From: Acidimicrobiales bacterium | GTDB taxonomy: Bacteria; Actinomycetota; Acidimicrobiia; Acidimicrobiales; Aldehydirespiratoraceae | Reading direction: 5' to 3' | DNA: 64,000 nucleotides | Assembly: GCA_033344915.1 (NCBI GenBank) | Contig: JAWPML010000001.1 | Location: 2,600,369 to 2,664,368 of the forward strand | Part shown: piece after piece, positions 16,584 through 48,800 of the stretch | Layout: every line of letters starts with the position of its first letter | Position numbering within the stretch: position 1 is the stretch's first letter | The notes under the pieces: model-generated | What the model saw: the letters and a program-made list of their open reading frames with translations, nothing else | The model's database searches: none | Told to the model about the DNA's origin: nothing | Position numbers and translations under genes: made by a program

Positions 16584-17369
16584 GTGCAGTTCGTGTCCTA
16601 CATGTCCCCGGGATTCCCCGAGTCGCTCTTCGAGGTGCTCGCCCGTGAGATGGGCGCCGAGCTGCACTTCGAGACCGAGACCTCCGGCCCGGCCCCGGGC
16701 ACCGATCCGTTCCGCGACGGCACGTTCGACCTGGGGTGGATCTGCTCGACCTCGTTCGTCGATCTCGCGCTGCACCGCGCCGAGCCGTCGGTGCGGATCG
16801 CCGGTGTGGCGTGGGTGCCGGACGACCCGGATGCGCACGGTCGGCCCGTGTACTTCGGCGACGTGGTCGTGCGCCCCGATGCGCCGTTCACCTCCGTCGC
16901 CGATCTCGCCGGCCTGCGCATCGGCTGCAACGACGTCGTCAGTCTGAGCGGCCACTACGCACTGCGCTTCGCGATCGAGGACCTCGGCGCACACCCCGAC
17001 GACTTCGCCGAACTCGTGTTCACCGGCGGACACCACCATTCGCTCGACGCCCTCGTGCGGGGCGAGATCGACGCCTGCGTGGTCGATTCGGTCGTGCGGA
17101 TCGGGCGCAGCCGCCACGACGCGGCCGTCGCCGGCCTCCGGGTGATCGACCGCCTCGGCCCCTGGCCGGTGCAGCCGCTCGTGGCCCGCCACGACTTCGA
17201 CGACGCCGAACTCCACCGCCTGCGCACCGCACTTCTCGCCGCCAACGATCGCCCCGAGGTGCGGGCCGAGCTCGAGCGGGCGGCGTTGACCACACTCGTG
17301 GAGGTCGGCGTCGACCACTACACCGACCTGCACGCGGCGATGGAGCGCGGCACCGGCAGCATCAGCTGA
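16584..17369 (+). CDS. PhnD-like substrate-binding protein without signal peptide
   Basis: The product has 261 residues. The pattern FDLGWICSTSFVDLA, VVVRPDAPFTSVADLAGLRIGCND and the hinge HHHSLDALVRGEIDACVVDS is that of periplasmic phosphonate/phosphite-binding (PhnD, type 2 periplasmic-binding) proteins. The start chosen gives MQFVSYMSPG with no signal peptide or lipobox, and no permease or ATPase gene is near. It may therefore be a cytoplasmic ligand-binding protein or enzyme of the same fold; related cytosolic proteins are known in thiamine-precursor synthesis. Ligand unknown. Confidence 0.75.
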   Translation: MQFVSYMSPGFPESLFEVLAREMGAELHFETETSGPAPGTDPFRDGTFDLGWICSTSFVDLALHRAEPSVRIAGVAWVPDDPDAHGRPVYFGDVVVRPDAPFTSVADLAGLRIGCNDVVSLSGHYALRFAIEDLGAHPDDFAELVFTGGHHHSLDALVRGEIDACVVDSVVRIGRSRHDAAVAGLRVIDRLGPWPVQPLVARHDFDDAELHRLRTALLAANDRPEVRAELERAALTTLVEVGVDHYTDLHAAMERGTGSIS

Positions 17370-17433: not shown

Positions 17434-20169
17434 ATGCACCTCCCTCGTCGATCCCGTGTCCTGCTCGGCTGCGCGGTCCTGCTCGCGCTGATCGCCGCGT
17501 CATGCGGCGACGACGGCACCGCGGAGCCGCCGTCGACCAGCAGCACGACGACCACGACGGTCGAGTCGACGACATCGACGACGACGAGCACGACGACCAC
17601 GACGACGGAGCCCCCGCCGCCGACCGTGCCCGTTCCCGTCCACATCGACGAGAACGGCTTCAACGACCACACCGTGCCCGCGGTGGACACGGTGGAGGAA
17701 TGGTTCGCCCTGGCCCACTCGACCGCCGACCGGTCGGTCACCAAGTTCACGATCTCCGACTTCGGCCGGGCCGACGCGGCGGCACGGTGGGCCGACAGCA
17801 ACTTCTTCGAGCTCCACGACGAGTGGTACTACTTCCGCCTCCTCAACGGCCAGCCCGTTCCGGGGGTCACCGATCGTCCGGTCACCGGCCTCTCGTTCGC
17901 CACCGTGGCGGCCATCTACGCCTGGGCCGAGAGTCAGGGCTCGTTGCCGCTGGGGCTCGACTGGATCGAGAGCCAGACGTTCGGCCGGGACCGGCTCTAC
18001 TCGCGACGCTTCTACGACATCATCCTGCGCACCACACCCCGCATCTACGGCGCCGGCACGCTCGTCCACCTGCCGGACAGTCGGGACGGCGAGCGCTGGC
18101 TGATCGAGCTCGAGTTCAGCGACCAGGTGACCCCGGGCGACATCGAGACATATGTCGCGACGCTCGCCGCCACGCTGCCGGCGGAGATCGGCGACAACCT
18201 CGAGTGGGTCATGCGCTCGCCCCATCAGATCGACGTCGGCGAGCAGATGAAGGCGGACGGACACCCGCTGGCCGACCGCATCGTCCGCTGGTCCGAGATC
18301 GTCGAGCCCGGCGAGATCGCCGTCTACAACCCGGGTATCGCGGCCGGCCAGCTCCTGCTCGTCGACGAGTCCGGCAGCCAGCTCGCCCGGGCGACCGACA
18401 CCGACATCATCATCATGGAGCACGTGCCGGACTACCTCCCGCCCGGCAGCGCCCTCATCACGTCGTCACCGCAGACGCCGCTCGCCCACGTGAACCTGCT
18501 CGCCCGCAACCGCGGCATCCCGAACCTCTCGTTCAGCGGCGTCACCGACGACCCCGGCATCTCGTCCGCGGCACGGGTCCGCTCCTACGTCATCGTCCGG
18601 GCGGAGGGCGACTCCGTCGACATCACCCTCATCGACCGCGACGACTTCCTCGACTGGCAGGCCCGCCAGGACACCTCGACGATCCGCGTGCCCGCGGTCG
18701 ACGTGGAGACGATGGCGCTCACCGTCGACCTCACGGCCCTCGCCGGCGCGATCACCAGCGACGCCCAGCTCGACGACTGGCGCCCCACCATCGGCGGCAA
18801 GTCCGCCGGTTTCGTCGCCCTCCTGCGCACCGCGGAGCTCACGACACCACCCACCCCGCTCGCGATCACCGTGCGGCCGTACCTCGAACATCTCGACCTG
18901 GTCGACGACGCGCTCGACGCCATCCTCCGCAACGACGAGTTCGAGGACGACCCACGCGCCCGCTACCTCTTCCTCGAGGGTCCGACCGACTACGAGGCCT
19001 TCTACTCCGCCCCGCGCGACCTGGAGTACGGTGCCGAGCTCCAGGCGGCCCATCCGCCCGGCACGATTCTCGGTGACGTGCTCGCCGCGGACGGCTTCAA
19101 GCAGTACTTCCGGGCCCAGCCGATGAACGGCGCGACACTCGCCGCGCTCACCGCCGCGTTGACCGACCGGTTCGGGCACTACGACGACACCCAGGGCCTG
19201 CGCTTCCGCTCGTCGAGTTCGGTGGAGGACATCGAGGGGTTCAACGGCGCCGGGCTCTACAACTCCAACACCGGTTTCCTCGATCCCGGCGCGCAGCCCG
19301 ACAGCTCGGACCACAAGCGGTCGATGGAGTACGCGATCAAGAAGACGTGGGCGTCGTACTGGGGGTTCGAGGCGTTCGAGGAACGGCGGCGGGAGAACGT
19401 CGACCACCGAAGCGGCGCGATGGGTGTGACGGTGCACGCCCGCTTCGACGACGCCCTCGAGGAGAACAACGGCGTCGCCACCTTCACGTTCGCCCCCGAA
19501 GGCTCGGCGATCATCGGCACCGCGGTGATCAACGTGCAGGACGGCGCGGTGAGCGTCGCCAACCCCGATCCGACGTCCACCGATCTCCCCGAGGTGATCG
19601 AGGCCGACTTGCGGGCCGACGGGAGCGTCGTGGTCCGCCGCATCCAGGGATCGACGATCACGTCCGGGCCGATTCTCTCCGACGCCGAGGCGGAGACCCT
19701 GACCGAGCAACTCCACGCCGCCACCACCACGTGGCGCGACCAGGTCAACGCGGGGCTCGCCGCGGCGCAGGCCGTCACCGTCGTCACGCTCGACTTCGAG
19801 TTCAAGACCATGGGCGCGGGCTGGCCCGCGGGGGCCGCGAACGACGACGGCGGACTGATCGTCAAGCAGGCCCGCAGCCTCGATCCGGGCCTGCGGGGGA
19901 TTCCGAGCTCCGTCGTCGCTCTCGACATCCCCCGCGACATCCTCGCCCGGGCCTCGCGCGTCGCCCGGCTCAATTGCGTTGGGTCGACGGCGATTGCGGC
20001 GTGGACGGACCCGCTCCTCGCACCCGACATGGGCTTCAGCGAGATGCCGTACACCACACCGACGGGCGTCGATCCCGCCGACTGCACCCAGAGCACCCTC
20101 TACTCCACCCCGGATGCGTTTCTCGTCGAACTGCTGAACAGCGGCGACCGGATCGAGCTGACCGGCTGA
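17434..20169 (+). CDS. Exported lipoprotein with permuted PEP-synthase/dikinase-like domains
   Basis: The 911-residue chain starts with a lipoprotein signal (hydrophobic stretch ending LIAASC, lipobox Cys near 24) and a Thr-rich spacer. Residues about 280-400 resemble the phosphohistidine swivelling domain of PEP-utilising enzymes (TPLAHVNLLARNRGIPN, His near 352). From about 450 follows a pyruvate/PEP-dikinase ATP-grasp domain: GGKSAGFVALL, RFRSSSSVEDIEGFNGAG (about 590) and a later IVKQARSL. This order, His domain before ATP-grasp, is the reverse of PEP synthase but matches glucan water dikinases. An enzyme of this kind outside the membrane, where ATP is scarce, is odd; it may be a binding protein. 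The ATG at 17434 is preferred over an upstream TTG because the signal then begins MHLPRRSR. Confidence 0.75.
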   Translation: MHLPRRSRVLLGCAVLLALIAASCGDDGTAEPPSTSSTTTTTVESTTSTTTSTTTTTTEPPPPTVPVPVHIDENGFNDHTVPAVDTVEEWFALAHSTADRSVTKFTISDFGRADAAARWADSNFFELHDEWYYFRLLNGQPVPGVTDRPVTGLSFATVAAIYAWAESQGSLPLGLDWIESQTFGRDRLYSRRFYDIILRTTPRIYGAGTLVHLPDSRDGERWLIELEFSDQVTPGDIETYVATLAATLPAEIGDNLEWVMRSPHQIDVGEQMKADGHPLADRIVRWSEIVEPGEIAVYNPGIAAGQLLLVDESGSQLARATDTDIIIMEHVPDYLPPGSALITSSPQTPLAHVNLLARNRGIPNLSFSGVTDDPGISSAARVRSYVIVRAEGDSVDITLIDRDDFLDWQARQDTSTIRVPAVDVETMALTVDLTALAGAITSDAQLDDWRPTIGGKSAGFVALLRTAELTTPPTPLAITVRPYLEHLDLVDDALDAILRNDEFEDDPRARYLFLEGPTDYEAFYSAPRDLEYGAELQAAHPPGTILGDVLAADGFKQYFRAQPMNGATLAALTAALTDRFGHYDDTQGLRFRSSSSVEDIEGFNGAGLYNSNTGFLDPGAQPDSSDHKRSMEYAIKKTWASYWGFEAFEERRRENVDHRSGAMGVTVHARFDDALEENNGVATFTFAPEGSAIIGTAVINVQDGAVSVANPDPTSTDLPEVIEADLRADGSVVVRRIQGSTITSGPILSDAEAETLTEQLHAATTTWRDQVNAGLAAAQAVTVVTLDFEFKTMGAGWPAGAANDDGGLIVKQARSLDPGLRGIPSSVVALDIPRDILARASRVARLNCVGSTAIAAWTDPLLAPDMGFSEMPYTTPTGVDPADCTQSTLYSTPDAFLVELLNSGDRIELTG

Positions 20170-29579: not shown

Positions 29580-32500
29580 ATGACCTGCGGGTCCTGTGGG
29601 GAGAAGAACCGGGACGGCGCCCGATTCTGCGCGGAATGCGGCACCGTGCTCGAGCACGCCTGTATGACCTGTGACGCCGCGCTGACACCGACGGCGAAAT
29701 TCTGCGACCAGTGCGGCACGCCGGTGGGGTTCACCCCGGACGATCCCGAATCGAGCGACGACGGGGCCGTCCGTAAGACCGTCACCGTCATGTTCGCCGA
29801 CCTGGTCGGCTCCACCGCGTTCGGCGAGGCCGTCGATGCGGAGGCGGCGCGGCGGGAGATGGGCGCCTACCACCAGCTGGCCCAGCGGGTGATCGACCGC
29901 CACCAGGGGACGCTCGTCAAGTTCATCGGCGACGGCGTCATGGCCGTGTTCGGCATCCCGGAGATCGCGGAGGACGACGCCGACCGCGCCATCCGCGCCG
30001 GGCTCGACCTCCAGGGCGAGTTCCGCACCATCGCCGCCGGGATCCTCGAACGCCACGGCGCCACCGTCGGCCTGCGGGTCGGCATCAACACGGGCGAGAT
30101 CGTGATCGCCGAGCACGACGACGACATGGTCGGCGACGCGATCAACACCGCCGCCCGCATCGAAGCCGAGTGCACGCCCGGCCGCGTGCTCGTCGGTGAA
30201 CAGACCTGGCGGCTAACGCGTTCGACCGTCGACTACGAGGTGCTCGGCGAGGTCCACGTGAAGGGCAAGCAGGAGGGCGTCGCAACCTTCCAGGTGCTCG
30301 CTGCGACCGACGAGGAGATCGCAACCCCGTTCGTGGGCCGCGACAACGAACTGCTCCGGCTCCGCGCCGCCCTCGACGACACGATCGACGATCGCACCGT
30401 TCGCTTGGTGTCCGTCATCGGCGCCCCCGGCGTGGGCAAGACCCGCCTCGCCGCCGAGATGAGCGACCGGGCGGGCGAAGGCGTGACGGCATTCGACCTG
30501 CGCGTGGACCGCGCCGCCACCGCCACGTTCGGACCGATCGCCGACCTGCTCGCGGCAGCCCCCGACGCGGCCCGACGCGCCGTAGACGCGCCCGATGCCG
30601 AGCGGCTGCTCCCCCTCCTCGACACGTTCACCGGATCGGCGCCTGCCCGCTCGACGGAGGAGTCGTTCTGGGCGGCCCGCCGCCTCGTCGAACTGATCGC
30701 CGCCGACGGCCCCACCGTGATCGTGGTCGACGACGTGCAGTGGGCCCAGCCCCTGTTCCTCGACCTGCTCGATCATCTCGTGGAGTGGGTCGCCGGCCCC
30801 GCCCTCATCGTGGCCCTGGCCCGCCCCGAGATCCGCGAGATCCGGCCGACCCTCGCGGAGCGCGGACGCCGTGTCGCCGACGTCATTTCGCTCGAAGGGC
30901 TCGACGCCGCGACAACGGAGATGCTGGCCGCCCGTCTGCTCGGCGCCGATGAGCTCCCGGACGGTCTCGCGGTCAGACTCCCCGAGTCGACCGAAGGCAA
31001 TCCGCTCTTCGTGCGCGAGCTCGTCCGGATGCTCGTGGACGACGGCACGATCGAGGAACGCAACGGCAGATGGGCGCTGTCCATCGACGCCGATGCCGTC
31101 GAGGTGCCGCCCACCATCCAATCGCTGCTCGCCAGCCGCGTGGAGCGCATGGACGACGAGGCTCGCCGCGTCGTGGAGATGGCCGCGGTCGTCGGATCCG
31201 AGTTCGCCCGCGGCGCGGTTGCCGCCCTTCTACCGGACATGGCCCACACCTCGCTCGACCGCATCCTCGAAGGACTGCGCCGGCGCGAGATCATCGATCC
31301 GACCGGCACCTACTGGGGCGACGAACCCGTCCTGCGGTTCCACCACGTCCTCATACGCGACGCGGCCTATCGCCGCCTCCTCAAGGAGCGGCGGGCCGAC
31401 CTGCATCTCAAGGTGGCTGACTGGACCGAGACGATGGCGACCGCCACGGGCGCCGACCATGACCTCGCGATCGCCTTCCACCTCGAACAAGCCCACCGGT
31501 ATCTCGGCGAGCTCGGTCCGTTCGATGACGCCGGACTCGCCGCAGGTGCCCGCGCCGCCGATCTCCTTGCCGCCGCGGCCAAGGGCGCGTTGCAACAGGA
31601 CGACCTCGCGGCGGCCAGCTCGCTGGCCGTGCGGGCCCTCGCGCTGATCGATGCCGAGGACCCCCACCGGGCCGAGGTGCTGGTGATCGGGTGCGAGGCG
31701 TTCTTCCAGGCAGCGCGCGTGAACGACGCGGAGCCGCTGCTCGGCGAGCTGACCGAGCTGGCGGGTGACGATCGCCGCCTCGACGCCTGGGCCACGGCAT
31801 TTCGGGGGAATCGCGTGGCGCTGACCGAACCCGACGGACTGGTCGAGGCCGAGCCCGAGGTTGCCGCGGCGGCCGAGACGTTGAGCGACCTCGGCGACGA
31901 TGCCGGCGTGGCGAAGGCCCGCCTGGTGCGGGCGATGATCCTCGCCCGCCTCGGCCGGGTGGGCGACTGCGAAACCGAGCTCGATGCCGCCCTCCACGCA
32001 GCGCGAGCGGCAGACGACCGGAGGCGGATCACCGCCGTGCTGGGTGCCGCACCCGTCGCCGCGCTGTGGGGTCCGAGCCCTGTGGCGCGGGCCGGCGGTC
32101 GCTGTCTCGACATCATCCGACTACTCCGCATCACGTCGGCGTCACCCATGGTCGAGGCCACCTCCATCCGCTGCCAGGCCGTGCTGGAGGCGATGCGGGG
32201 ACGCTTCGACGAGGCCCGCGAGCTCGCCTGGCGCTCCGCCGAGATCGTCGACGAGCTCGGTCTGCGCCACGGCGTGCTCGAGACGGAGATGTACCGCGGC
32301 TACATCGAACTCCTGGCCGACGACCCTGCCGCAGCCGAGCCCCATCTCCGCCGGGCCTTCGACGGCCTGGGTCAGCTCGGCGTGGGTGCCGACGCCGGCC
32401 AGGCCGCGGCCCATCTGGCCCGGGCGTTGCTGGCGCAGGGACGCCTCGACGAGGCGGCAGAGGTCGCGGAGCAGAGCGCAGCACTCGCCGGCCAGAACCT

Positions 32501-35500
32501 CCAGACGGCGATCGCCTCGCGCTCGGTGCGGGCCGAGCTGGCGTCGCGCCGTACCGACCACCGCACGGCGCATCGCTTGGCCGAGGAGGCCGTCGCGATT
32601 GCCGAGCGCACCGACCTGACGATGGACCATGCCCGGGCCGAGGTGGCACAGGCGACAGTGTTGCGCCGGGCCGGCGACGAGGCAGGGGCCGACGCCGCAC
32701 AGTCCCGAGCGTCGGAGCTCCACGCGGCCAAGGGAGCGGAGTTCGGGGCCCAGCTGACACCGAGTGTCGGCGACCGCGTCACCGGGTCCCAGCCAACAGC
32801 GAATGCGGCTTCCGAGCTGCAACTCGAGTTCTGGGCGGCAGTCAGGGCCGGCGACGCCGACCGCGCCGCAGCACTCGTCGCCGACGACTGGTGGTCCGTC
32901 GACACGCGCCCGGGCCATTACCTCGACATGACGAAGGCGCAGCTGATGGAGCTCTTCGACCAGATCAGAGGCATCGGCGCAGGGGTCGCGCTGACGCCGA
33001 TCTCCGTGCGCGGCGATCGGCTCGTACTCAGCCGGTGTCAGTCGAACGAAGACGGCGCGACCCACGACTATCTCGAGCTCGTCGAACTCGCCGACGACGG
33101 CCGAGCCGCGCGGGCCGCGTTCTACGACCATGACGACCTTCGGACCGCGCTCGACGAGCTCACCCAGCGGTACCGAGACGGCGAGGGCGCCGAGTTCGCA
33201 GAGATGGTCGATCTCGGCTGGCGGTTGGGCAAGGCGAGCGAGGCGCCGGCAGAAGACCAACCGGCGCTGCTGGCCGACGTCTGCCACGACGACATCGTCG
33301 TCATCGATCACCAACCCGTGGTCGGACTTCCCGACAGCGACCTGTCGACGCTCACCGAGCAGGGCATGCTCGACGCCGGGATGATCCTGGTCTCGGAGTA
33401 TCTCCGCATCGGGCCGGGTGCGATCGTCGTCGGCCTCCACAAGCATCTCGACGGCGACCTGGTTCGGGACCAGTACCTGCTCGTCGTGATGCGCGACGGC
33501 AAGGCTGCACGCATGGAGTGGTTCGCCGCCGTACAGCGCGAACAAGCCGCGGCCCGGTTCGACGAGCTGACCTCGGATACGACGGCCGGTGACGGGCCTC
33601 GCGACAACGGCGCCTCCCTCCTGTTGCGACGGTTCTATGACCTCGCTACAAAACCCGACCAGCACGAGGCCGCGCTCGAGCTGGTCGCGGACGACTGGGA
33701 AGGCGACGACCGGCGACCGCTGGTGGGCACGTCGGTCACGAAGGCGGACCTGGCCGAATTTCACCTGCTCGGCCGGCCGCCGGCGACCGCGCCCGACATC
33801 GAGGTGATCGACACCGCCGGCGACGAGCTGGCGATGTGCTCGGTCAGGACGCGGACGGACGGCTCGGACCTCGCGATGCCGGCCCTCTTCGTGATCGAGA
33901 CGGACGGGGAGCGGTTCCGCTCATCCGCCGTGTTCGACATCGACGATCGCGACCGGGCCGCGCGGGAGTTCGAGCGCCGCCGCTTCCGCCGCGAGGAGGG
34001 CGCGGCGTACGTCGAGACGCTCGACCTCTCCTGGAGCTATCGCAACCTGTTCTACGACCTCGAGGCGTTCCGGGACCTCCTCACCGACGACTTCGAGCTC
34101 GTCGATCACCGCGCCGTGAGCTTCGGCCGCCTGAACGCGGACGAGTACGTCGACGTTCTCGCGAATGCGCGGGAAGTTGCCGAGGGACGCCGGTTCGACC
34201 CCGGTCCCTATATCGCCGTCGACCACGGCGTGATACTCAGCGACACGTTGCTCTCGAATGCCGAGGCGAGCTGGCCCGTATTGATGATCACGGTCTACCG
34301 CGGCGATCTGATGGAGCGTCAGGAGCTGTTCGACCCCGCGGACCGCGACCGGGCCCTCGCCCGCTTCGAGGAACTGCGGCCCAGCCGTTCGGCCGTGCCG
34401 GGGGAGCTCCACAACCGGGCGACGGCGACGATGCGAGCGTTCTACACGGCGATGTACGACGACCGGGACCTGGAGCGCGCACGCGCGCTGCTCCACGACG
34501 ACCTCATCGGCGTCGACAATCGCCCGCTGGTCGGCACCGACATCACCGCGGACCAGGTCCCCGACAACTTCCGTGAGCTGCTCTCGCACGACCATCTCGA
34601 CTGGACGCTCGACACGCTCGCCGTGGCCGGTGAGTCGCTCGCGCTGTCACGGCTCGAGGTGACTCGCCCGGGATCGTCGTTCACGAGCTCGTACCTCATG
34701 GTCAACGAGGTCGACGCCGACGGGCTCGCCGTTGCCGCATGGTCCTGCGAACCCGACGACATCGAAGCGGCCCACGCCGAACTGGATCGGCGCTACCGCG
34801 CCGGCGAGGGAGCCGAGTTCGCCCCGACGACTGGTCACCCCCCACTCGGTGAGCTCCGCAACCCGGCGACGGACAACCTGCGGGCGTTCTACGCCGCGAT
34901 GTTCAACGACCGCGACTTCGACACAGCGATGGCGTTCATGGCTGACGACTTCGTGGGAGAGGATCGCCGGGAGCTTGTCGGGTCGACGGTCGCGAAGCCG
35001 GACGTCTTCGAGAACTACCGGGAACTCCTCGAACACGACGGACGGATCGACTGGACGGTCGACGTGTTGGCGGTCGCGGGCGAACGGGTCGCCCTGACGC
35101 ACGTCACCACGGTCCGCTCCGGCTCGAGCTTCGAAACGGAGTTCCTCCTCGTCGCAGAGGCCGACGAAGCGGGGCTCGCCACCGCGGTGGTCGCGTTCGG
35201 GACCGATGATCTCGAAGCCGCCGTCGACGAAATGACCGAGCGCTACATCGCCGGAGAAGGCGCGCCGTACGAGGAAATTGCCCGGGTCTCCAAGGCACTT
35301 GGAGATGCCCGCGCGAGGAACGACGCCGAAGCCAGTCGCCAACTGACAACCGACGACTTCGTGGTCGTCGACCACCGGGCCGCAGCCTTCGGCGAACTCG
35401 ACTTGGAGGGCTATCTGACGCTGCTTCGCGCGGACGTCGAGGCGACGGGTGACCGCCCCATGGTCACCCGCCAGATCCTGGCCGCAGACGAGTCGATGCT

Positions 35501-36467
35501 TCTGTGCGAGACCGTCTCCGTCACCGACGCCGCAGAGTGGCCGATGATCTCGCTGCTCGTGATGCGAGACGGCCGAGTGTGTCGCGTGGAGGTGTGGCAC
35601 CCCGGTGACCATGCGACCGCGCTCGCCCGCTTCGAGGAGCTCACCGCTGAGTCGCGCGAGTCTCGCAACCTCGTCATCGAGATGTTCGCTCAGCAGGAGG
35701 AGATCGGGCCCGGTGACTTCGACCCGCGGGAGGCGTTCAGCGACGCCGTGATCGTCGACCACCGCAGCGGGGTCATCCCGCTCGGGTCGATCGAGGACCT
35801 GGCGGGGTCGGTGGCGGCCTTCGACGAGCAGGGCATGGGCTTCTCCACGAGGGCCATCGCGTGGCGGGGCGAGTTCCTCGGTCTCTTCCGGATGACGCGC
35901 TCCACGCCCTCGGGACTGCGAGCGGTGATGTACAACCTCATCCAGGTCGACGCCGACCGTCGCCCTACCCGGCTCGAGACCTTCGGCGAGGACCAGCTCG
36001 ACCAGTCGCTTCGGCGACTCGACGAACTGTGGTGGGACTCAGATGAGCCGGAGTTCCGGCCGTTCGCGGAGCTGCTTCGGCTGTTCGGCGACCGGATCTT
36101 CGCGGCCGACTGGGCCGGCGTGCGCGAGCTGCTCGATCCCGAGTTCCGCCACGTTCTGCACAAGAAGCTCGAGGTCGGACCATTTGACCTCGAGGGCTTT
36201 GTCGAGAACGGCCGGATCTGGAAGGACATGGCCGGATCGATCCAGCCCGTCATCCAGGAAGTCGTCCGCCACACCGACTCGGTCGCGCTGCTCCGACAGG
36301 ATCTCCACGGACTCGACGAGGCCGGGCTCGAGAGCCAGTGGTCGGGGCTCGTCATCGGAGTCGGGGCCGGCGACAAGATCACCCGCTGGGAAGAGTTCGA
36401 GCCCGACGCCGTCGACGCAGCGCTGGCCCGCTTCGACGAACTCGCCCGAGGTGAGACAGAGGTCTGA
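29580..36467 (+). CDS. Giant zinc-ribbon / class III cyclase / AAA / TPR / NTF2-array protein A
   Basis: The 2295-residue, apparently cytoplasmic protein begins with two zinc ribbons (Cys 3, 6, 17, 20, 28, 31, 42, 45). Residues about 60-235 are a class III nucleotide cyclase with both metal Asp residues (VMFADLVGST, FIGDGVMAVFG), Lys before the second motif as in adenylate cyclases, and the Asn/Arg of INTAARIE, so it should be active. An AAA/STAND ATPase follows (Walker A GAPGVGKTR near 280, Walker B VIVVDDVQW near 380), then TPR-like helices (about 600-1060), and from about 1076 some nine SnoaL/NTF2-like modules. GAGGGG precedes the ATG. The stop lies within a GGTCTGACCCC repeat. The cyclase and ATPase calls are strong; the role of the repeats is unknown. 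Confidence 0.85.
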   Translation: MTCGSCGEKNRDGARFCAECGTVLEHACMTCDAALTPTAKFCDQCGTPVGFTPDDPESSDDGAVRKTVTVMFADLVGSTAFGEAVDAEAARREMGAYHQLAQRVIDRHQGTLVKFIGDGVMAVFGIPEIAEDDADRAIRAGLDLQGEFRTIAAGILERHGATVGLRVGINTGEIVIAEHDDDMVGDAINTAARIEAECTPGRVLVGEQTWRLTRSTVDYEVLGEVHVKGKQEGVATFQVLAATDEEIATPFVGRDNELLRLRAALDDTIDDRTVRLVSVIGAPGVGKTRLAAEMSDRAGEGVTAFDLRVDRAATATFGPIADLLAAAPDAARRAVDAPDAERLLPLLDTFTGSAPARSTEESFWAARRLVELIAADGPTVIVVDDVQWAQPLFLDLLDHLVEWVAGPALIVALARPEIREIRPTLAERGRRVADVISLEGLDAATTEMLAARLLGADELPDGLAVRLPESTEGNPLFVRELVRMLVDDGTIEERNGRWALSIDADAVEVPPTIQSLLASRVERMDDEARRVVEMAAVVGSEFARGAVAALLPDMAHTSLDRILEGLRRREIIDPTGTYWGDEPVLRFHHVLIRDAAYRRLLKERRADLHLKVADWTETMATATGADHDLAIAFHLEQAHRYLGELGPFDDAGLAAGARAADLLAAAAKGALQQDDLAAASSLAVRALALIDAEDPHRAEVLVIGCEAFFQAARVNDAEPLLGELTELAGDDRRLDAWATAFRGNRVALTEPDGLVEAEPEVAAAAETLSDLGDDAGVAKARLVRAMILARLGRVGDCETELDAALHAARAADDRRRITAVLGAAPVAALWGPSPVARAGGRCLDIIRLLRITSASPMVEATSIRCQAVLEAMRGRFDEARELAWRSAEIVDELGLRHGVLETEMYRGYIELLADDPAAAEPHLRRAFDGLGQLGVGADAGQAAAHLARALLAQGRLDEAAEVAEQSAALAGQNLQTAIASRSVRAELASRRTDHRTAHRLAEEAVAIAERTDLTMDHARAEVAQATVLRRAGDEAGADAAQSRASELHAAKGAEFGAQLTPSVGDRVTGSQPTANAASELQLEFWAAVRAGDADRAAALVADDWWSVDTRPGHYLDMTKAQLMELFDQIRGIGAGVALTPISVRGDRLVLSRCQSNEDGATHDYLELVELADDGRAARAAFYDHDDLRTALDELTQRYRDGEGAEFAEMVDLGWRLGKASEAPAEDQPALLADVCHDDIVVIDHQPVVGLPDSDLSTLTEQGMLDAGMILVSEYLRIGPGAIVVGLHKHLDGDLVRDQYLLVVMRDGKAARMEWFAAVQREQAAARFDELTSDTTAGDGPRDNGASLLLRRFYDLATKPDQHEAALELVADDWEGDDRRPLVGTSVTKADLAEFHLLGRPPATAPDIEVIDTAGDELAMCSVRTRTDGSDLAMPALFVIETDGERFRSSAVFDIDDRDRAAREFERRRFRREEGAAYVETLDLSWSYRNLFYDLEAFRDLLTDDFELVDHRAVSFGRLNADEYVDVLANAREVAEGRRFDPGPYIAVDHGVILSDTLLSNAEASWPVLMITVYRGDLMERQELFDPADRDRALARFEELRPSRSAVPGELHNRATATMRAFYTAMYDDRDLERARALLHDDLIGVDNRPLVGTDITADQVPDNFRELLSHDHLDWTLDTLAVAGESLALSRLEVTRPGSSFTSSYLMVNEVDADGLAVAAWSCEPDDIEAAHAELDRRYRAGEGAEFAPTTGHPPLGELRNPATDNLRAFYAAMFNDRDFDTAMAFMADDFVGEDRRELVGSTVAKPDVFENYRELLEHDGRIDWTVDVLAVAGERVALTHVTTVRSGSSFETEFLLVAEADEAGLATAVVAFGTDDLEAAVDEMTERYIAGEGAPYEEIARVSKALGDARARNDAEASRQLTTDDFVVVDHRAAAFGELDLEGYLTLLRADVEATGDRPMVTRQILAADESMLLCETVSVTDAAEWPMISLLVMRDGRVCRVEVWHPGDHATALARFEELTAESRESRNLVIEMFAQQEEIGPGDFDPREAFSDAVIVDHRSGVIPLGSIEDLAGSVAAFDEQGMGFSTRAIAWRGEFLGLFRMTRSTPSGLRAVMYNLIQVDADRRPTRLETFGEDQLDQSLRRLDELWWDSDEPEFRPFAELLRLFGDRIFAADWAGVRELLDPEFRHVLHKKLEVGPFDLEGFVENGRIWKDMAGSIQPVIQEVVRHTDSVALLRQDLHGLDEAGLESQWSGLVIGVGAGDKITRWEEFEPDAVDAALARFDELARGETEV
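32808..36440 (+). repeat. Protein-level array of about nine SnoaL/NTF2-like modules (gene A)
   Basis: Each module has a start like FYxAMxxDRDxxxA, a DDxxxxDxR or DDFxxVDHR block, a strand with DxLAVAGExxALS or similar, and an end ALARFDEL. Modules with DRRPLVG alternate with modules with VDHRxxxFG. Counting by eye gives nine; the last two (DPREAFSDAVIVDHR and DWAGVRELLDPEFRHV) match the last two of gene B. Confidence 0.65.
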
Positions 36468-39729: not shown

Positions 39730-39775
39730 GACGGTGTCTGTGACGTGGGTTCCACTCGGGGTGTGATTGATGACC
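39730..39775 (+). promoter_or_regulatory. Conserved upstream element of giant cyclase gene B
   Basis: Partner of 29465-29510: TGTGAC (39739-39744), 17 bases, TGTGAT (39762-39767), with GGGTTCCAC between. The GTG start lies about 78 bases downstream. Confidence 0.55.
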
Positions 39776-39853
39776 GGGGCCGCGTGCTGGCGTCCGGAAT
39801 GGGGCCGCGGGACACTTGAGCACCCGGCGTGGCGCCGCGGGCAGGGGGACAGC

Positions 39854-42800
39854 GTGAACTGCACATCGTGCGGGGAGGAGAACCGGCCGAACGCGAAGTT
39901 CTGCGGGGAGTGCGGAACCCCGATCACCCGTGCGTGCGCGACATGCGGCCACAACCTTCATCCCACGGCGAAGTTCTGCGACGAGTGTGGTTCGGCGACG
40001 ACCGCCGCGGCCGAAGGGCCCCCGCCCTCCGAGGACCGCGCGGTCCGCCGCACCGTCACCATCGTGTTCGCAGACCTCGTCGGATCGACCGCCTTCGGCG
40101 AACGGGTCGACGCCGAGACCGCCCGCCGCGAGATGGGCGCCTACCACGAGCTCGCCCGCGACGTGATCGAGTCGCACGACGGCGAGGTCATCAAGTTCCA
40201 AGGTGACGGGGTCATGGCCGGCTTCGGCGTGCACGACGTCAGCGAGGACGACGCGGACCGAGCGGTGCGGGCAGGCCTCGAGCTCCAGCGCCGCTTCGCC
40301 GCCGTCATCGACGGGATCCGTGATCGCCACAGCGTCGAGGTCGGCCTCCGAGTCGGAGTCAACACGGGCGAGGTGGTCATCGCCGAGGACGACGCCGACA
40401 TGGTCGGCGACCCCATCAACACCGCGGCCCGGATCGAAGCCCAGTGCACGCCCGGCCGGGTGCTCGTCGGCGAACAGACGTGGCGGCTCACCCGCTCGAC
40501 CGTCGACTACGAGGTGCTCGGCGAAGTCGAGGTGAAGGGCAAGGCGGAGCCGATCGCGACGTTCCAGGTGCTCGCCGCCGTCGAGGACGAGGAGGTCGCC
40601 ACGCCGTTCGTGGGCCGCGAAGCAGAGCTCGCCGCCCTCACCGCCGCGCTGGAGAACACGATCGCCGAAGGCGCGCCCCAGCTCGTGACCGTGATCGGCT
40701 CGCCCGGCGTGGGCAAGACCCGCCTCGCGGCCGAGCTGGCCCGCCGAGCGTCGGAAGTGACGTCGTTCGACCTCCGCGTCGACCGGGCGGGAGCGGCCAC
40801 CTTCGACCCGGTCGCCGATCTGCTGCGGGCGGTCAGCGAACTGCCGGCCGGACTCTCCAACGAGGCGATCTCGGAGCACCTCCGCGCGTTCGTGGGCGAG
40901 GTCGACGACGCTGACCGGCTGGTGCCGTTGCTGGCGGGCTTCGTGGGCGCGGCCCCGATGCGCTCCACCGAGGAGTCGTTCTGGGCCGCTCGCCGCCTGG
41001 TCGAGCTCGTGGTCGCGACCCGACCCGCGGTGATCGTGGTCGACGACATCCAGTGGGCCGAACCGCTCTTCCTCGACCTCCTCGAGCATCTCGTCGAGTG
41101 GACCGAGGGGGCCGCTTTCGTCGTCGCCCTCGCCCGGCCCGAGATCCGCGACATCCGACCGGCGTTCGCCGAAGTCGGACGGCGGGTGACCGAGGTGATC
41201 GCGCTCGAAGGGCTCGACCCCACCACGATGGCCGAACTGGCGACCGGCATCCTCGGGGGCAAGGCGCTCCCCGACGAGCTGATCGCCCGCCTCCCCGACT
41301 CGACGGAGGGCAACCCGCTGTTCGTGCGGGAGCTGGTCCGCATGCTCGTCGACGACGAGGTGATCGCCGAGACGCCGTCGGGGTGGGTCCTCGCGATCGA
41401 TGCCGACGCCGTGGAGGTGCCGCCGACCATCATCTCGCTGCTTGCCAGCCGCGTGGAACGCATGGACGACGAGGAGCGGCGCGTCGTCGAGGCCGCCTCG
41501 GTGGTCGGGTCGGAGTTCGCCCGCGGCGCGGTCGGCACACTCCTGCCGAATCTGGGAGCGGCCCAGCTCGAGCGGATCCTCGAACGGCTCCGTCGCCAGG
41601 AGATCGTCGACGCCACCGGCAGCTACTGGGGCGACGAGCCGGTCTGGCGGTTCCACCACGTGCTCATCCGAGATGCGGCCTACCGGCGACTCCTGAAGGA
41701 GCGCCGGATCGACATGCACCGCCGCGTCGGGCAGTGGACCGAGACCACCGCCGCCGAACTCGGCGGTGAACACGAGATCTCGATCGCCTTCCACTACGAA
41801 CAGGCCCACGGCTATCTCCGCGAGCTCGGCGGCGACGACGGCGACGCTGTCGACCTGGGCGGACGAGCCGCCGACCTGCTCGCCTTGGCCGCCGAACGAG
41901 CGCTTGCGCGCGACGACCTCGCCTCGGCCGGTTCGCTGGCCACGCGCGCCCTCGGTGTGCTCGACGAGAGCGATCCCCGTCGGCCCGAACTGCTGCTCTC
42001 TACCTGCGAGGCCTGGTTCGGCGCCGGCCGGGTCCGCGACGGCGCGCCGCACCTCGACGAGCTCCGCCGCCACACCGGCGACGACCGGATCGCCGCCTGG
42101 ACCGCGGCGTTCGAGGGCCAACACGTCGTGCTCACCGAACCGGATCGCCTCAACGAGGTCGAACCGATCGTCGCCGATGCCGCCGCCCGCCTCGCCGATG
42201 TCGGAGACGATGCCGGGGTCGCCAAGGCCCGGCTCGTTCGTGCGCTGATCCTCGCCCGGACCGGCCGGGTCGGCGAGTGCGAAGACGAGCTCGATGCCGC
42301 GCTGGCTGCAGCCCGGGCCGCCGACGATCGCCGCCGGATCACCGCCGTGCTCGGTGCCGCGCCCGTCGCCGCGCTGTGGGGGCCGAGTCCGGTCGCCCGA
42401 GCCGGCGGCCGCTGCCTCGACATCATCCGCCTCCTGCGCATCACTTCGGCGTCGCCGATGGTCGAGGCCGTCTCGATCCGGTGCCAGGCCGTGCTCGAGG
42501 CGATGCGGGGTCGGTTCGACGAAGCCCGCACCCTGATCGACCGCTCGCAGGCGATCGTCGAGGAACTCGGTCTCCGCCACGGGATCCTGGAGTGCCGGAT
42601 GTTCGCCGGCTACATCGAGCTCCTCGCGGGGGACCCCGTGGCCGCCGAACCCCACCTCCGCGTGGCGCACGCAGGGCTCGGCACCCTGGGCGTGGGCGCC
42701 GATGCCGGCCAGGCCGCAGCACTGCTGTCGCGCTCGCTCCTGGCCCAGGGCCGAACCGACGAAGCGGCCGAACTCGCCGACGAGTCCGCCGACCTCGCCG

Positions 42801-45800
42801 GCCAGAACCTCCAGACCGGTATCGCGTCGCGCACCGCCCAGGCCGAACTCGCAGCCCACGAGGGCGACCTCGACACCGCGCTCCGACTGGCCGACGAGGC
42901 CGTGGCCATCGGCGCCGACACGGATCTCACCATGGACCACGCCACCGCGCTCGTGGGCCTGGCCGACATCCACCGGCTCCGGGGTGACGAGAAGGAGGCC
43001 GACCACGCAACGAGCACCGCCAATCGGTTGTTCGCCGAGAAGGGCGCGGTGGTGGTCGTGGAGGCACCCTCCCGCACCCGATTCGACCTGCGGTCGTCGT
43101 CGATCGACACGCTGGCCACGCGACACGGCCGCGCAGCGGCCGGGGCGCTCTACGGCCGGCGCGACGTCGCAGCCTGGGAAGCGATGTGCCTTCCCGATGC
43201 CCGTTTCATCGACCGCCGCCCGCTCCACGACGACATGACCGGTCTCGCCGAACGGCGTGCACTCCAGCACGACATCGTCGCCGGACTGCGCTCGTACGAC
43301 ACCGAACTCGTCGCCACGCGGGGTGAGTATCTCGCCCTCTTCGCCACCACGCTGCGTTTCGGCGGCGACCGTTCAGAGATCTCGACCCTCGATGTGTTGG
43401 AGGTCGACCACGAGGGTCTGCTCGTCGCGTCGGTCGTGTTCGAGGAGCACGAGATCCAGGCAGCGAGCGGCGAGCTCACCGAGCGCTATGCCATCGGCGA
43501 AGCGGCCGACTACGCAGAGGTGTTGCGCACCGCATGGCGCCAGTTCGAGTGGATGGCCGACACGGGTGAGTTCGCTGGTGAGTGGGTGGCCGACGACTAT
43601 GTCCTCGTCGACAACCGTCGGCTTCTGGAGGCGACGGCCGACCGCGACGACATGGCCGAACTGGCGGCCGACGTCGACCTGCGCACGCTGTTCGCCCGGA
43701 CCATCGAGGCGATCAACGAGCACGGCCTCGTCGTGACGTTCCGCTCCCGCTCCCACGACGACGCCGCGCTCGCGGCCGAATGGGACCTGATCGCGCTCCA
43801 CCTCATTCGGGACGGCAAGTACGCACGCACCGAGTTCTTCGACGGCGACGGCCTCGACGACGCGCTGCGCCGGTTCGAGCAGCTGACCGTGCCCGCGACC
43901 ATGGAGAACGCCGCGACCCGCCTCGCCCGCGAGTTCTGGTCGGCGCTGTACGACGACCTCGATGTCGACGCCGCGGTCGCGCTCGTGTCCGGTGGCACAA
44001 GCGACGAGCGCGGGCTGTCGTTCCCCGATTTCCAGAGCCACATGGCGGACTATCTCGAACTCCTGCTCGAGGGCGTGACCCATGTCGACCACCGCATGAC
44101 GCCCCTGGCGATCCGAGGTGACCTCCACTCGATCAACCACATCTGGTCCCGGTTCCATCCCGGTGACACCGAGAGCGCGGACTACATGGTGGCCCGGGTT
44201 AGCGACGGGCGCTTCGTCGACAGCTCGATCTTCGACGATCTCGACGAGGCCTACGCCGAACTCGAGCGCCAGTACCGCGAACACGAGGGAGCCGAGTTCG
44301 CCGACGTCCTCGACGCGATCTCGGCCCAATGCCGTGCGATCGCCGAGCTCGACGTCGACGCGACGTGGGACCTCGCCCACCGCGACTGCATGGTGATCGA
44401 CCATCGGCCGCTGATCCGCCACGAGACGCCGCTCGCCGACATGCTCGACGCTCAGGTCGAGACGGGCATGCACGGACGGATGATCGTCGAGAGATTCGCC
44501 CGTCTGACCGAGCACGGTGCCGTCCAGATCGACCACTCCGACTTCCGCGACAAGGACGGCATCCCCGTCGAGTTCCGCAGCTGCCAGCTCCGGATCATTC
44601 GCGACGGCAAGTGCGCCCACTTCGAGGTCTTCCCCGAGCACGCCGTCGAGGCCGCGTGCGCCCGCTTCGACGAACTGACCGCCACTCGGCCGGTCTCCAA
44701 CCGGGCCTTCGAGGTGAACAAGGAGTTCTTCCGACGGATCCTGGACGACCGCGACGTCGATGGGGCGCGGGCCCTCCGCCACCCCGACTGGGTGAACGCC
44801 GACGAACGGGGCCTCCGACTCACCGAGCTCGACGCGACATCGGCCATCCAGTGGTTCTCTGTCGGCGGGCAGCCGAAACGGTGGTCGGCGACCGCGGTCG
44901 CGGTCCGCGGCGACCGGGTGACCCTGTCGGAGATGACGGTCGAGGCAGCCCACGAACGTCGCTTCCTCGTGGTGAGCGAGATCGACGAGTCGGGACTGGC
45001 CATCCGAGATGCTCACTTCGAGGCTGGCGATCTCCGCCCGGCCCTCGACCTCCTCAACCGGTGGTACATCGAGGGCGAGGGCGCGCCCTATCAGGAGATG
45101 ATCGAGACAGGCACCGACCTGGCCGCCGCCGGCCAGCTCCCGAAGGAGGAGCGGATCGCCCGACTGACCGAGATCCTCCACGACGACTTCACACTCGTCG
45201 ATCATCGCGCCTTCAGCTTTCCCGACATCGACCGATCGGCGCTTCTGGAGTTGGACGACGCGGAGGAAACACGGACGTCGATCAGCCCTGCGTTCCTCCG
45301 ACTGGCGCCGAACGCGCTGCTCACGATCAGCGAGGAACACACCGCCAACACGACCGGTGGCGAGGTGTTCCATCGCCATCTCGTCGTGCAGGCCCAGCGC
45401 GGCGGGCGGGTCACGGACCTCGAGTTCTTCGCGGAGGACCAGCTCGCCGAGGCCGAGGCCCGATTCGAAGAACTCGTCCGGGCCGACCGCCGGCTCCGGA
45501 ATCTCGCCACCGCGGCCGCCGACGGCTTCTACGCCCGCCTCGCCCGCCGCGAGCTCGATGGTGCGCTGGCGATGCTCGGCCCCGGCTGGTCGATGCGGGA
45601 CAACCGCGACCTCGCCCTCGCCGTTCTCGACCGCGTCACGGCCGAGTCGTGGTTCGCCCAGGCGATCGCAGAGGGTGCCCGGCGATGGACGACGGAGACG
45701 ATCGCGATTCGTGGCCGTTCCCTCGCCGCAATGAGGATCGGTGCGGTCGGCGCAGACGCCGAGTGGGCCTACCTGCTCGTCATCGAGGCCGACGACGGGG

Positions 45801-48800
45801 GGCACTCCCGCCGAGCCGAGATCTTCGACCCCGACGAACTACGGCCGGCTCTCGATCTCCTCAACGAGTGGTACCTCGAGGGCGAGGGCAGCGAACATCG
45901 AGCGGTGTTCGAGCTGGCCTGGGCGCTCGGGAGAACACAGGAATCGGACAGCACCGAACAGGCGGCCGCCCTCGCCACGCTGATGCACGACGACGTGCAG
46001 ATGAAGGACCACCGCCGTTTCTCGTTTCCGACAATCGACCGCGCCGCTTTGGAAGACGACCGCAGAGACGTCCTCTTCGCACCGTTTGCGGTGATCGTCC
46101 CGGAATACCTGGCCTTCAACGACCGTGGCCTGCTCATCGTGCAGGAGAACCGCGAAACCACCGACACCGGTGGGCAGGTGATCCATCGACAGTTGACACT
46201 GTTGGTCGCACGTGACGGGAAGGCCGCTCGGATCGAATGGTACGACGATGACGATCGCGACACCGCGCTCGCCCGGTTCGACGAGCTGACCGCCCCCGCG
46301 CCGGCCAACGCGGCGTCGCGGCAGCTCTCGTCGTTCTGGCAGGCGGCGTACGGGGAGCGCGACCTCGACGCTGCGTTCGCCATGCTGCGCGACGATTTCG
46401 TCAGCACCGACCGTCGGCGACTTGTCAGCTCGCCGACGCTCGACAAGCCGGAGGTACGCGACTACCTCGAGTTGTTCATCAACTCGACGAACAGATCGAT
46501 CGACCACGAGTTCGAGGTGATCGCCACCCGCGACGACCATCTCGTCCTCGCCCGCGTCGACCCCAGAGACGGTCGCAGCGGTTTCGGCCAGGAGATGCTC
46601 CAGCTCGGGGAATTCGGCGCCGACGGCCGGGCCGTGCGTGCGACCAGCTACTCCCCGGAGGACCGCGACCGAGCCCTGCGCGACCTCGAGGCGCTCGGCG
46701 GCCTCGGTCCGCTGGAGAACCCCGCCTCGCGCCTGGCCCGCTCGTTCTACGAATCCGTCTTCGATCGCGGCGACATGGAGCCCGCGCTCACGCTCGTAGC
46801 CGATGACTTCGCCGGCGAGGACCGCCGACCGCTCATCGATGTCCGACTCGGCAAGGCCGACCTCTCCGCCAACTTCGCGGCGATCGTCGACGACGCCACC
46901 TCGTGGGACTGGCGCCTCGAGACGATCGCCATCGCCGGTGACCGACTCGCGCTCTATCGCTTGTCCCCCGCGGAACAGGCATCGAGCTTCTCGAGCCCCC
47001 ATCTCCAGGTGATCGAAACCGACGGTTCCCGGATCATCGGCGGCGTCTCCTTCGAGCCCGACGACTTCGAGGCGGCCGCCGCGGAGATGCACCGCCGCTA
47101 CCGCGACGGCGAGGGTGCCGAGTTCGCGACGACGCTCGACCGCGGGTGGGAACTGCTGCGTCAGTTCGACGGCCCCGTCTCAAATCGGGCGGCGCTCACC
47201 GATGACTTCACCTACGTCGACCACCGATCGATGGGTTTCGGCACGCTCGACCGCGATGGCTACCTCGAGCTCCTCACCGTCGGGCGGGAGATGGCGGGTC
47301 ACCGCCGGGCCCTGACCCGGCGCATCATCGCCATCGACCACGACATCGTGCTCCGTGAGGCACTGATCGAAACCGACGGGCTGTCATGGCCGGCGCTGGT
47401 GATCGTGGTCCAACGCGACGGTCGGATCTGTCGCCAGGAGTCGTTCGACGTCATCGATCTCGACGCTGCGCTCTCTCGATTCGAGGAGCTCACGGCACCG
47501 GCCGATGGGCAACCCCTCGACGGGCAGCCGTATCGCAATCGCTGTCAGCAGATCGTCGACCGGTGCAACGATCTGCTCCGGGCCGGCGACTTCGACGGGG
47601 TCGAGAAGCTCTACCGCCCGGACTCGTCGTCGTTCTTCGCCTTCGACCAACTGACGTTGGACCGGGAGGGACTCATGGAGAGCCTGAAGGTCAGTCACGA
47701 CGGATCCGAGTTCGGCACCGTGGAACTCGAGACCGAGTGGTTGCGCTCGCGCGGCGAACACCTCGCCCTCGCACGCCAGACCTACGTCATCGAGGCTTCG
47801 TCGATGAACGCCATCCGGCATGTGGTGCGCGAGATCGATGCCGAAGGGCGGATCGTCCGCGGCTACACCACCGACGAGGACGGCCTGGACGACGCCGTGG
47901 CAACCCTCGACGAATGGTGGCTCGAGTCGCTCGACCCCGACCAGGCGCGCACGCTCGCAACGACGGAGTCGTTCGGGCCTGCGATCACCCACATGCCGAG
48001 GCTGACCCATGCGGGCGCGGTAGTCCGCGTCAGCGCTCGTTCCGCCGACGGCACCGACGAGGACGGCGCGATCGCGATGTTCGTCGACGGCGGCCGCGTC
48101 AGCGCGACCGACCGGTTCCCGGGCGAGGAATTGGCCCGTGCCGTCGCCCGCTTCGACGAGCTGACCGCCGAACCCCCCACGACTGTCAACCTGGTCATCC
48201 AGGCCTTCGGCGAAGACACCGGCTCCTTGGCATCCGGCGGATTCGATCCGCGGGAGGCGTACAGCGACGCGGTGATCGTCGATCATCGCCCGGGCGTCGT
48301 ACCGCTCACGTCGATCGACGGTCTGGCCCGGTCGGTCGCCGCGTTCGACGAACACGACATGGACTTCCGGTACGAGGTCGTTGCGTGGCGGGGCGAGCTC
48401 GTCGGCCTCCTGCGCATGACCCGTTCGACCGCCTCCGGGATGCGGTCCGTGTGGTTCAACCTCATCCAGGCCGACCACGACGGTCGACCGGCCCGCGTCG
48501 AGTTCTTCGGCGAGGACCATCTCGACGAGGCGCTTCGCCGACTCGATGAACTCTGGTGGGAGAACGAGAACCCGGGCATACGGCCATTCGGCGAACTCCT
48601 CCGCTCGCTCGGTGACCGGGTCGACGCGGGCGACTGGGACGGTGTCCGCGAGCTCCTCCATCCCCAGTTCCGTCACGTCGTCCGCAAGCAGCTCGAGTCG
48701 GAGGAGTACGACACCGAGGGCTTCGTCGCGAGCACCAAGATCTGGAAGGAGATGGCGGGCTCGGCAATCTCGGTCAACCGCGAGGTCGTCCGCCATGACG

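Follow-up and report, generated by a model that had tools for sequence, protein, structure and literature searches.

Background

The known swivelling-histidine dikinases work in the cytosol or in plastids, using ATP to act on pyruvate, starch, phenols or antibiotics. In glucan, water dikinase (GWD) the swivel domain stands before the ATP-grasp domain. Rifampin phosphotransferase (RPH-Lm), HpeHI, CreHI and PpsAB are not known to carry an export signal.

In RPH-Lm and in the two-component small-molecule dikinases the swivelling histidine hands the phosphate of ATP over to a distinct acceptor domain (PMC4844700, PMC12167813), and classical swivel domains show a T/SxxGGxxxH signature (PMC12167813). 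Lys22, Arg117 and the swivel His825 of rifampin phosphotransferase are required for phosphotransfer, and its Km for ATP is 8.4 µM (PMC4844700). In GWD and PWD the catalytic histidine is found within the phosphohistidine domain (PMC12892837).

The window, by which we mean the whole analysed stretch of 64,000 nucleotides from an Acidimicrobiales bacterium, contains a gene whose 911-residue product had been described in a first-pass annotation as an exported lipoprotein with dikinase domains in permuted order. Our analysis of this gene and its relatives shows that the original observation holds.

Results

Sequence analysis of the open reading frame 17434-20169 yields a product made up of a signal peptide, a lipobox, a Ser/Thr-rich linker, an N-terminal domain, a swivel domain and an ATP-grasp domain (Table 1). 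The frame is a constrained gene under purifying selection, with a dN/dS of about 0.054/0.431 = 0.13 against the closest relative and a GC content of 0.66, 0.50 and 0.93 at codon positions 1, 2 and 3. A chance or artefactual reading frame is ruled out by this dN/dS and by the full-length homologues. PPDK_N, which scored 33.4 bits at aa 451-736, was the sole Pfam family above its own cut-off (27 bits), and NCBIfam returned only remote PEP-synthase matches and generic matches to lipoprotein N-termini. The motifs GGKSAG and RSSSSVED start at aa 454 and aa 592, respectively.

Table 1. Positions in the window of the gene and of the predicted parts of its product
Feature	Position	Strand	Evidence
Gene for predicted exported swivel/ATP-grasp lipoprotein (911 aa, stop included)	17434..20169	+	ORF, full-length homologues, Pfam PPDK_N, dN/dS
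Signal peptide, aa 1-23, MHLPRRSRVLLGCAVLLALIAAS	17434..17502	+	sequence; signal peptide and lipobox kept in orthologues
Lipobox Cys24, predicted lipid attachment site	17503..17505	+	sequence, lipobox counts, lgt and lspA in genome
Ser/Thr/Pro-rich linker, aa 25-69	17506..17640	+	sequence; linker sequence variable between orthologues
N-terminal domain, ~aa 76-285, candidate acceptor domain; invariant His128 at 17815-17817	17659..18288	+	His128 in 69/69; pLDDT mostly 60-90; no credible fold match
Swivelling phosphohistidine domain, ~aa 290-395; catalytic His352 at 18487-18489	18301..18618	+	profile-profile, PEP synthase swivel alignment, His352 in 69/69
PPDK_N-type ATP-grasp domain, ~aa 425-818; Lys456, Arg592, Glu598, Asp599, Glu789, Gln812, Arg814	18706..19887	+	Pfam, VIA-align, invariance
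C-terminal extension, aa 819-911	19888..20166	+	alignment; present in lipoprotein branch, absent from short members

Translated from ATG 17434, the protein opens with MHLPRRSRVLLGCAVLLALIAAS, followed directly by Cys24 and a few residues later by PPSTSSTTTTTVESTTSTTTSTTTTTTEPPPP. It combines a positively charged n-region, a hydrophobic stretch and a lipobox cysteine, which are conserved in orthologues. Among the 63 family members that are complete at the 5' end, 47 have a lipobox after a hydrophobic stretch, compared with 3.2% in shuffled N-terminal regions, and 8 more have a hydrophobic stretch without a lipobox. Signal peptide and lipobox are kept in all 14 tree members of the Acidimicrobiales lipoprotein branch. 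The genome itself gave two LGT and three Peptidase_A8 matches, that is two lgt and three lspA candidates. The protein is predicted to be exported as a lipoprotein to the outer face of the membrane, and the conserved signal peptide and lipobox support what the first-pass annotation had predicted in this respect. Export by Sec is more likely than export by Tat, which was rejected because RR motifs vary between the orthologous N-termini. At 31 other places the same genome matches this type of N-terminus, a lipobox followed by a Thr-rich linker, which suggests a common design of surface lipoproteins in this organism.

The PPDK_N-type ATP-grasp domain is found in all 13 members of alignment A2. An AlphaFold model of the 911-residue protein reached a mean pLDDT of 68.6, the ATP-grasp domain being well modelled. 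In VIA-align this domain was closest to rifampin phosphotransferase 5hv3 (Z 26.6, 2.6 Å over 286 residues), followed by PEP synthase 2ols (Z 26.0), HpeI 9goj (Z 21.7) and PPDK (Z about 18). The earlier assignment to the PPDK/PEP-synthase type of ATP-grasp domain is therefore borne out by Pfam and by structural comparison. Foldseek also matched the full-length model weakly to MHC class I, at E values of 0.04 or higher; these matches are not credible.

The swivel region has a pLDDT below 50 in both AlphaFold models, and its identification hence comes from sequence profiles. Profile-profile comparison with 22 swivel sequences of the PPDK/PEPS type gave a score of 32.4 (E 4.7e-5), while none of 60 column-shuffled controls scored above 16.4, and placed His352 on the catalytic histidine of these domains; both results speak for a swivel domain with its histidine, as had been proposed. 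The swivel domain of the window protein did not match Pfam PF00391, and for a swivel-only profile of 68 members the best PDB match was 2fm4, an isolated PPDK central domain, with an E of 0.31 that is not significant alone. The signature in the branch of the window protein reads [ST]xPQTPL[AS]H; its Gln347 is the same in the whole family.

The swivel domain, recognisable by the sequence PQTPLAHVN, comes before the ATP-grasp domain. In a hidden-Markov search with a profile of 13 relatives against PEP synthase 8a8e, profile positions 380-637 aligned with residues 18-256 of the ATP-grasp domain and the upstream positions 227-292 with residues 387-454 of the swivel domain, so that both domains are swapped relative to PEP synthase. 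This order is the reverse of that in PEP synthase, PPDK and rifampin phosphotransferase. Of the earlier claim on domain order, the permutation with regard to PEP synthase stands, and the swivel domain precedes the ATP-grasp domain as it does in GWD. Judged by its sequence, the 911-residue protein belongs to the superfamily of swivelling-phosphohistidine dikinases, since both defining domains are present.

The N-terminal domain was modelled by AlphaFold with moderate confidence. Foldseek and VIA-align found no fold relatives of it above Z 4.1; a gelsolin-like fold, with a Z of at most 4.1, is not credible. The acceptor probably binds to this domain, at a site that would include the invariant His128. 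At the other end of the protein, family members without the C-terminal extension stop soon after a KQ[AV]R motif.

Conservation was assessed in a family alignment of 70 members, which fall into four branches and whose identity to the window protein goes down to 23%. The swivel His352, Gln347 and His128 of the N-terminal domain are each present in 69/69. Lys456, Glu650, Arg651, Glu789, Gln812 and Arg814 are invariant as well (70/70 where counted). The same is true of Arg592, Glu598 and Asp599, although their invariance is partly built in because the pattern used to collect the members asked for them. Judging by where Glu789, Gln812 and Arg814 fall in the PPDK_N profile and by what is known of PPDK, we assume that they form the end of the ATP-grasp site which binds Mg and phosphate. 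The first-pass annotation had raised a possible loss of the ATP-binding residues; on the alignment, Lys456, Glu789, Gln812 and Arg814 are unchanged in 70 members. As far as an alignment can tell, the residues are conserved as in a working enzyme and not as in a binder.

Ten homologous loci were found among the genome contigs, one with 91% identity but without the 5' end, eight near full length with 44-53% identity and one short match at a contig end. A whole-genome search gave family matches in 17/298 genomes of the same order, in 3/396 genomes spread over the same phylum and in 95/237 genomes of a second phylum. A single genome of the second phylum can have as many as eight matches, where a match may be a protein fragment. 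This second phylum, that of locus L023, is probably Myxococcota. Several matches per genome suggest functional diversification in the second phylum and more than one acceptor. Examples of such genomes are G778 with 8 and G730 with 7 matches. No family match was found in 72,556 plasmids.

In a maximum-likelihood tree, obtained with a quick method and midpoint-rooted for drawing only, the 14 Acidimicrobiales lipoproteins group together (SH-aLRT 99) within a clade made up otherwise of second-phylum proteins, and this nesting suggests transfer between phyla. In a second Acidimicrobiales branch the module occurs within proteins of about 1,200 to more than 2,200 residues, several of which have a signal peptide but no lipobox; among four that were scanned, two contain Calx-beta and one cadherin-like domains. 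Our literature search, which covered mainly papers available without subscription, found no paper on this exported family. There is thus apparently an undescribed, large and multi-branched exported family in two phyla, which the first-pass annotation had not seen.

Two relatives within the phylum deviate from the others. A copy in genome G002 of the same genus (L028:5970-7667, minus strand) starts at about residue 397 and lacks the signal peptide, N-terminal domain and swivel domain; with a dN/dS of about 0.35 against the window gene it looks like a decaying remnant. A lone and very divergent relative in genome G183 of the same phylum (L072:8727-10928, minus strand) has the longest branch of the tree, no signal peptide that we could find and the swivel context QDANSHVN.

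In the window, the lipoprotein gene is surrounded by unrelated metabolic genes, for galactarate/altronate dehydratase, a phosphonate-type binding protein and an ABM monooxygenase. Clustering of the reading frames at 34 loci of both groups revealed no partner gene common to more than three loci beyond the gene itself and overlapping shadow frames, and for want of a recurrent neighbour we rejected an operon shared with a gene for a substrate or a partner. As the gene stands alone, genomic context gives no clue to a substrate.

Two further observations concern the window itself. The phosphonate-type periplasmic binding protein (PF12974) is encoded directly upstream at 16584-17369 (plus strand), and its predicted N-terminus has no obvious signal peptide. 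Two giant open reading frames at 29580-36467 and 39767-49000 (plus strand; 2295 and 3077 aa) flank a gene for a class I tRNA synthetase; their predicted domains are zinc ribbon, adenylate/guanylate cyclase and AAA ATPase, after which come long stretches that match SnoaL-like domains.

Discussion

We consider it fairly probable that the window protein is an extracellular, membrane-anchored dikinase which splits environmental ATP and passes phosphate via His352 to an acceptor. The protein would be exported as a lipoprotein and lipidated at Cys24, as its sequence and the presence of lgt and lspA suggest, and the Thr-rich linker would hold the catalytic body away from the membrane. Outside ATP would be bound by the C-terminal ATP-grasp domain, the residues of which are intact. 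By homology to PEP synthase and rifampin phosphotransferase, the swivel His352 would then accept phosphate from ATP with release of AMP and Pi. The swivel domain would turn to the N-terminal domain with its family-specific acceptor site, including His128, from where the phosphate might be passed to an extracellular or surface molecule. The hardest point for this proposal is the supply of ATP outside the cell, where it is usually thought to be scarce. With a Km like that of rifampin phosphotransferase, micromolar ATP could be enough, and lysed cells could supply it at such concentrations.

An extracellular location without an obvious ATP supply, an intact ATP site and a neighbourhood without a substrate clue would suit an extracellular sensor or scavenger of nucleotides, which binds and perhaps turns over ATP from lysed neighbours and has no role in phosphorylating a specific acceptor; the swivel histidine may pass its phosphate to water, leaving AMP and phosphate for uptake. 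We regard this as rather unlikely, given that a mere binder needs neither an invariant swivel histidine nor a conserved third domain with an invariant histidine of its own. The suggestion of the first-pass annotation that the protein phosphorylates a surface glycan, in the manner of GWD and on cell-wall or capsular polysaccharide, appears less likely still. The predicted surface location and a domain order shared with GWD agree with it. However, Pfam searches up to an E of 5 gave for none of the 13 A2 members a match to the GWD phosphohistidine model (PF22973 GWD1_pHisD; a test of unproven sensitivity, as the control genomes contained no GWD), to a starch-binding module or to another carbohydrate-binding domain. 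There is no conserved sugar-related neighbour either, which leaves this suggestion an analogy with GWD.

It had also been considered that the protein became a binding protein. The fusions to Calx-beta or cadherin-like domains in one branch would fit a catalytically dead adhesin or binder that reuses the dikinase scaffold, but the catalytic residues are constant in about 70 members, the fused proteins included. Because the swivel histidine, the lysine of the ATP site and the terminal Glu, Gln and Arg are all invariant, we hold such decay to be very improbable, and the conservation disfavours this alternative. Hardly any probability attaches to a cytosolic dikinase with a misread N-terminus, which would begin downstream, e.g. 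at GTG 17626, and have no signal peptide. Indeed, ATG 17434 is not preceded by an obvious ribosome-binding site; yet signal peptide and lipobox are kept across the family while the sequence of the linker is not, and the same type of N-terminus recurs in many proteins of the genome. A start downstream of the lipobox, which the first-pass annotation had named as grounds for refutation, is unlikely because both elements are retained by each of the 14 proteins in the Acidimicrobiales lipoprotein branch.

Returning to the extracellular dikinase and extending it to its relatives, we see evenly balanced prospects that at least two bacterial phyla harbour a large and hitherto unreported family of extracellular dikinases, anchored to the surface or secreted, which have a new acceptor domain and a permuted architecture and phosphorylate extracellular molecules with outside ATP by way of a swivelling histidine. 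Exported relatives with a full set of catalytic residues would mean that some bacteria phosphorylate outside their membrane with ATP, and they pose the testable question of what the acceptor is and where the ATP comes from.

Comparison with known systems

Rifampin phosphotransferase together with HpeHI, CreHI and PpsAB provides the closest solved match to the ATP-grasp domain, represented by the above Z scores of RPH and HpeI. The order in RPH is ATP-grasp, rifampin-binding and swivel domain, whereas the window protein has N-terminal domain, swivel and ATP-grasp and another, putative acceptor domain. It also carries PQTPL[AS]H in place of the classical swivel signature T/SxxGGxxxH. At E up to 1, the NCBIfam model RIF_Ptrans_rph gave no match in the window protein, and the orthologue L016 scored 11.3 bits against a cut-off of 999. 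Identity with rifampin phosphotransferase was rejected, as the swivel domain precedes the ATP-grasp domain and the full-length family score failed.

PEP synthase (PpsA) and PPDK share with the window protein a homologous PPDK_N ATP-grasp domain and swivel domain. Their order of ATP-grasp, swivel and PEP/pyruvate-binding domain is swapped in the window protein, in which Pfam detected no PEP/pyruvate-binding C-terminal domain at E up to 1. With the swapped order, the missing substrate domain and NCBIfam full-length scores far below the cut-offs, identity with these enzymes was rejected as well.

With GWD the window protein has the swivel domain before the ATP-grasp domain in common. GWD and PWD are plastid enzymes, however, whereas the window protein is a predicted exported bacterial lipoprotein. 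On the shared order and the failed phosphohistidine model, the window protein is not shown to be a GWD.

A likeness in the way of working, as opposed to descent, may be drawn to the Fam20 kinases, whose fold, chemistry and organism group differ from those of the window protein. Fam20 kinases, which belong to the secretory pathway, act on substrates of that route (PMC7948968). Compared with the known dikinases, it is the location, the architecture and the breadth of the family that are notable here.
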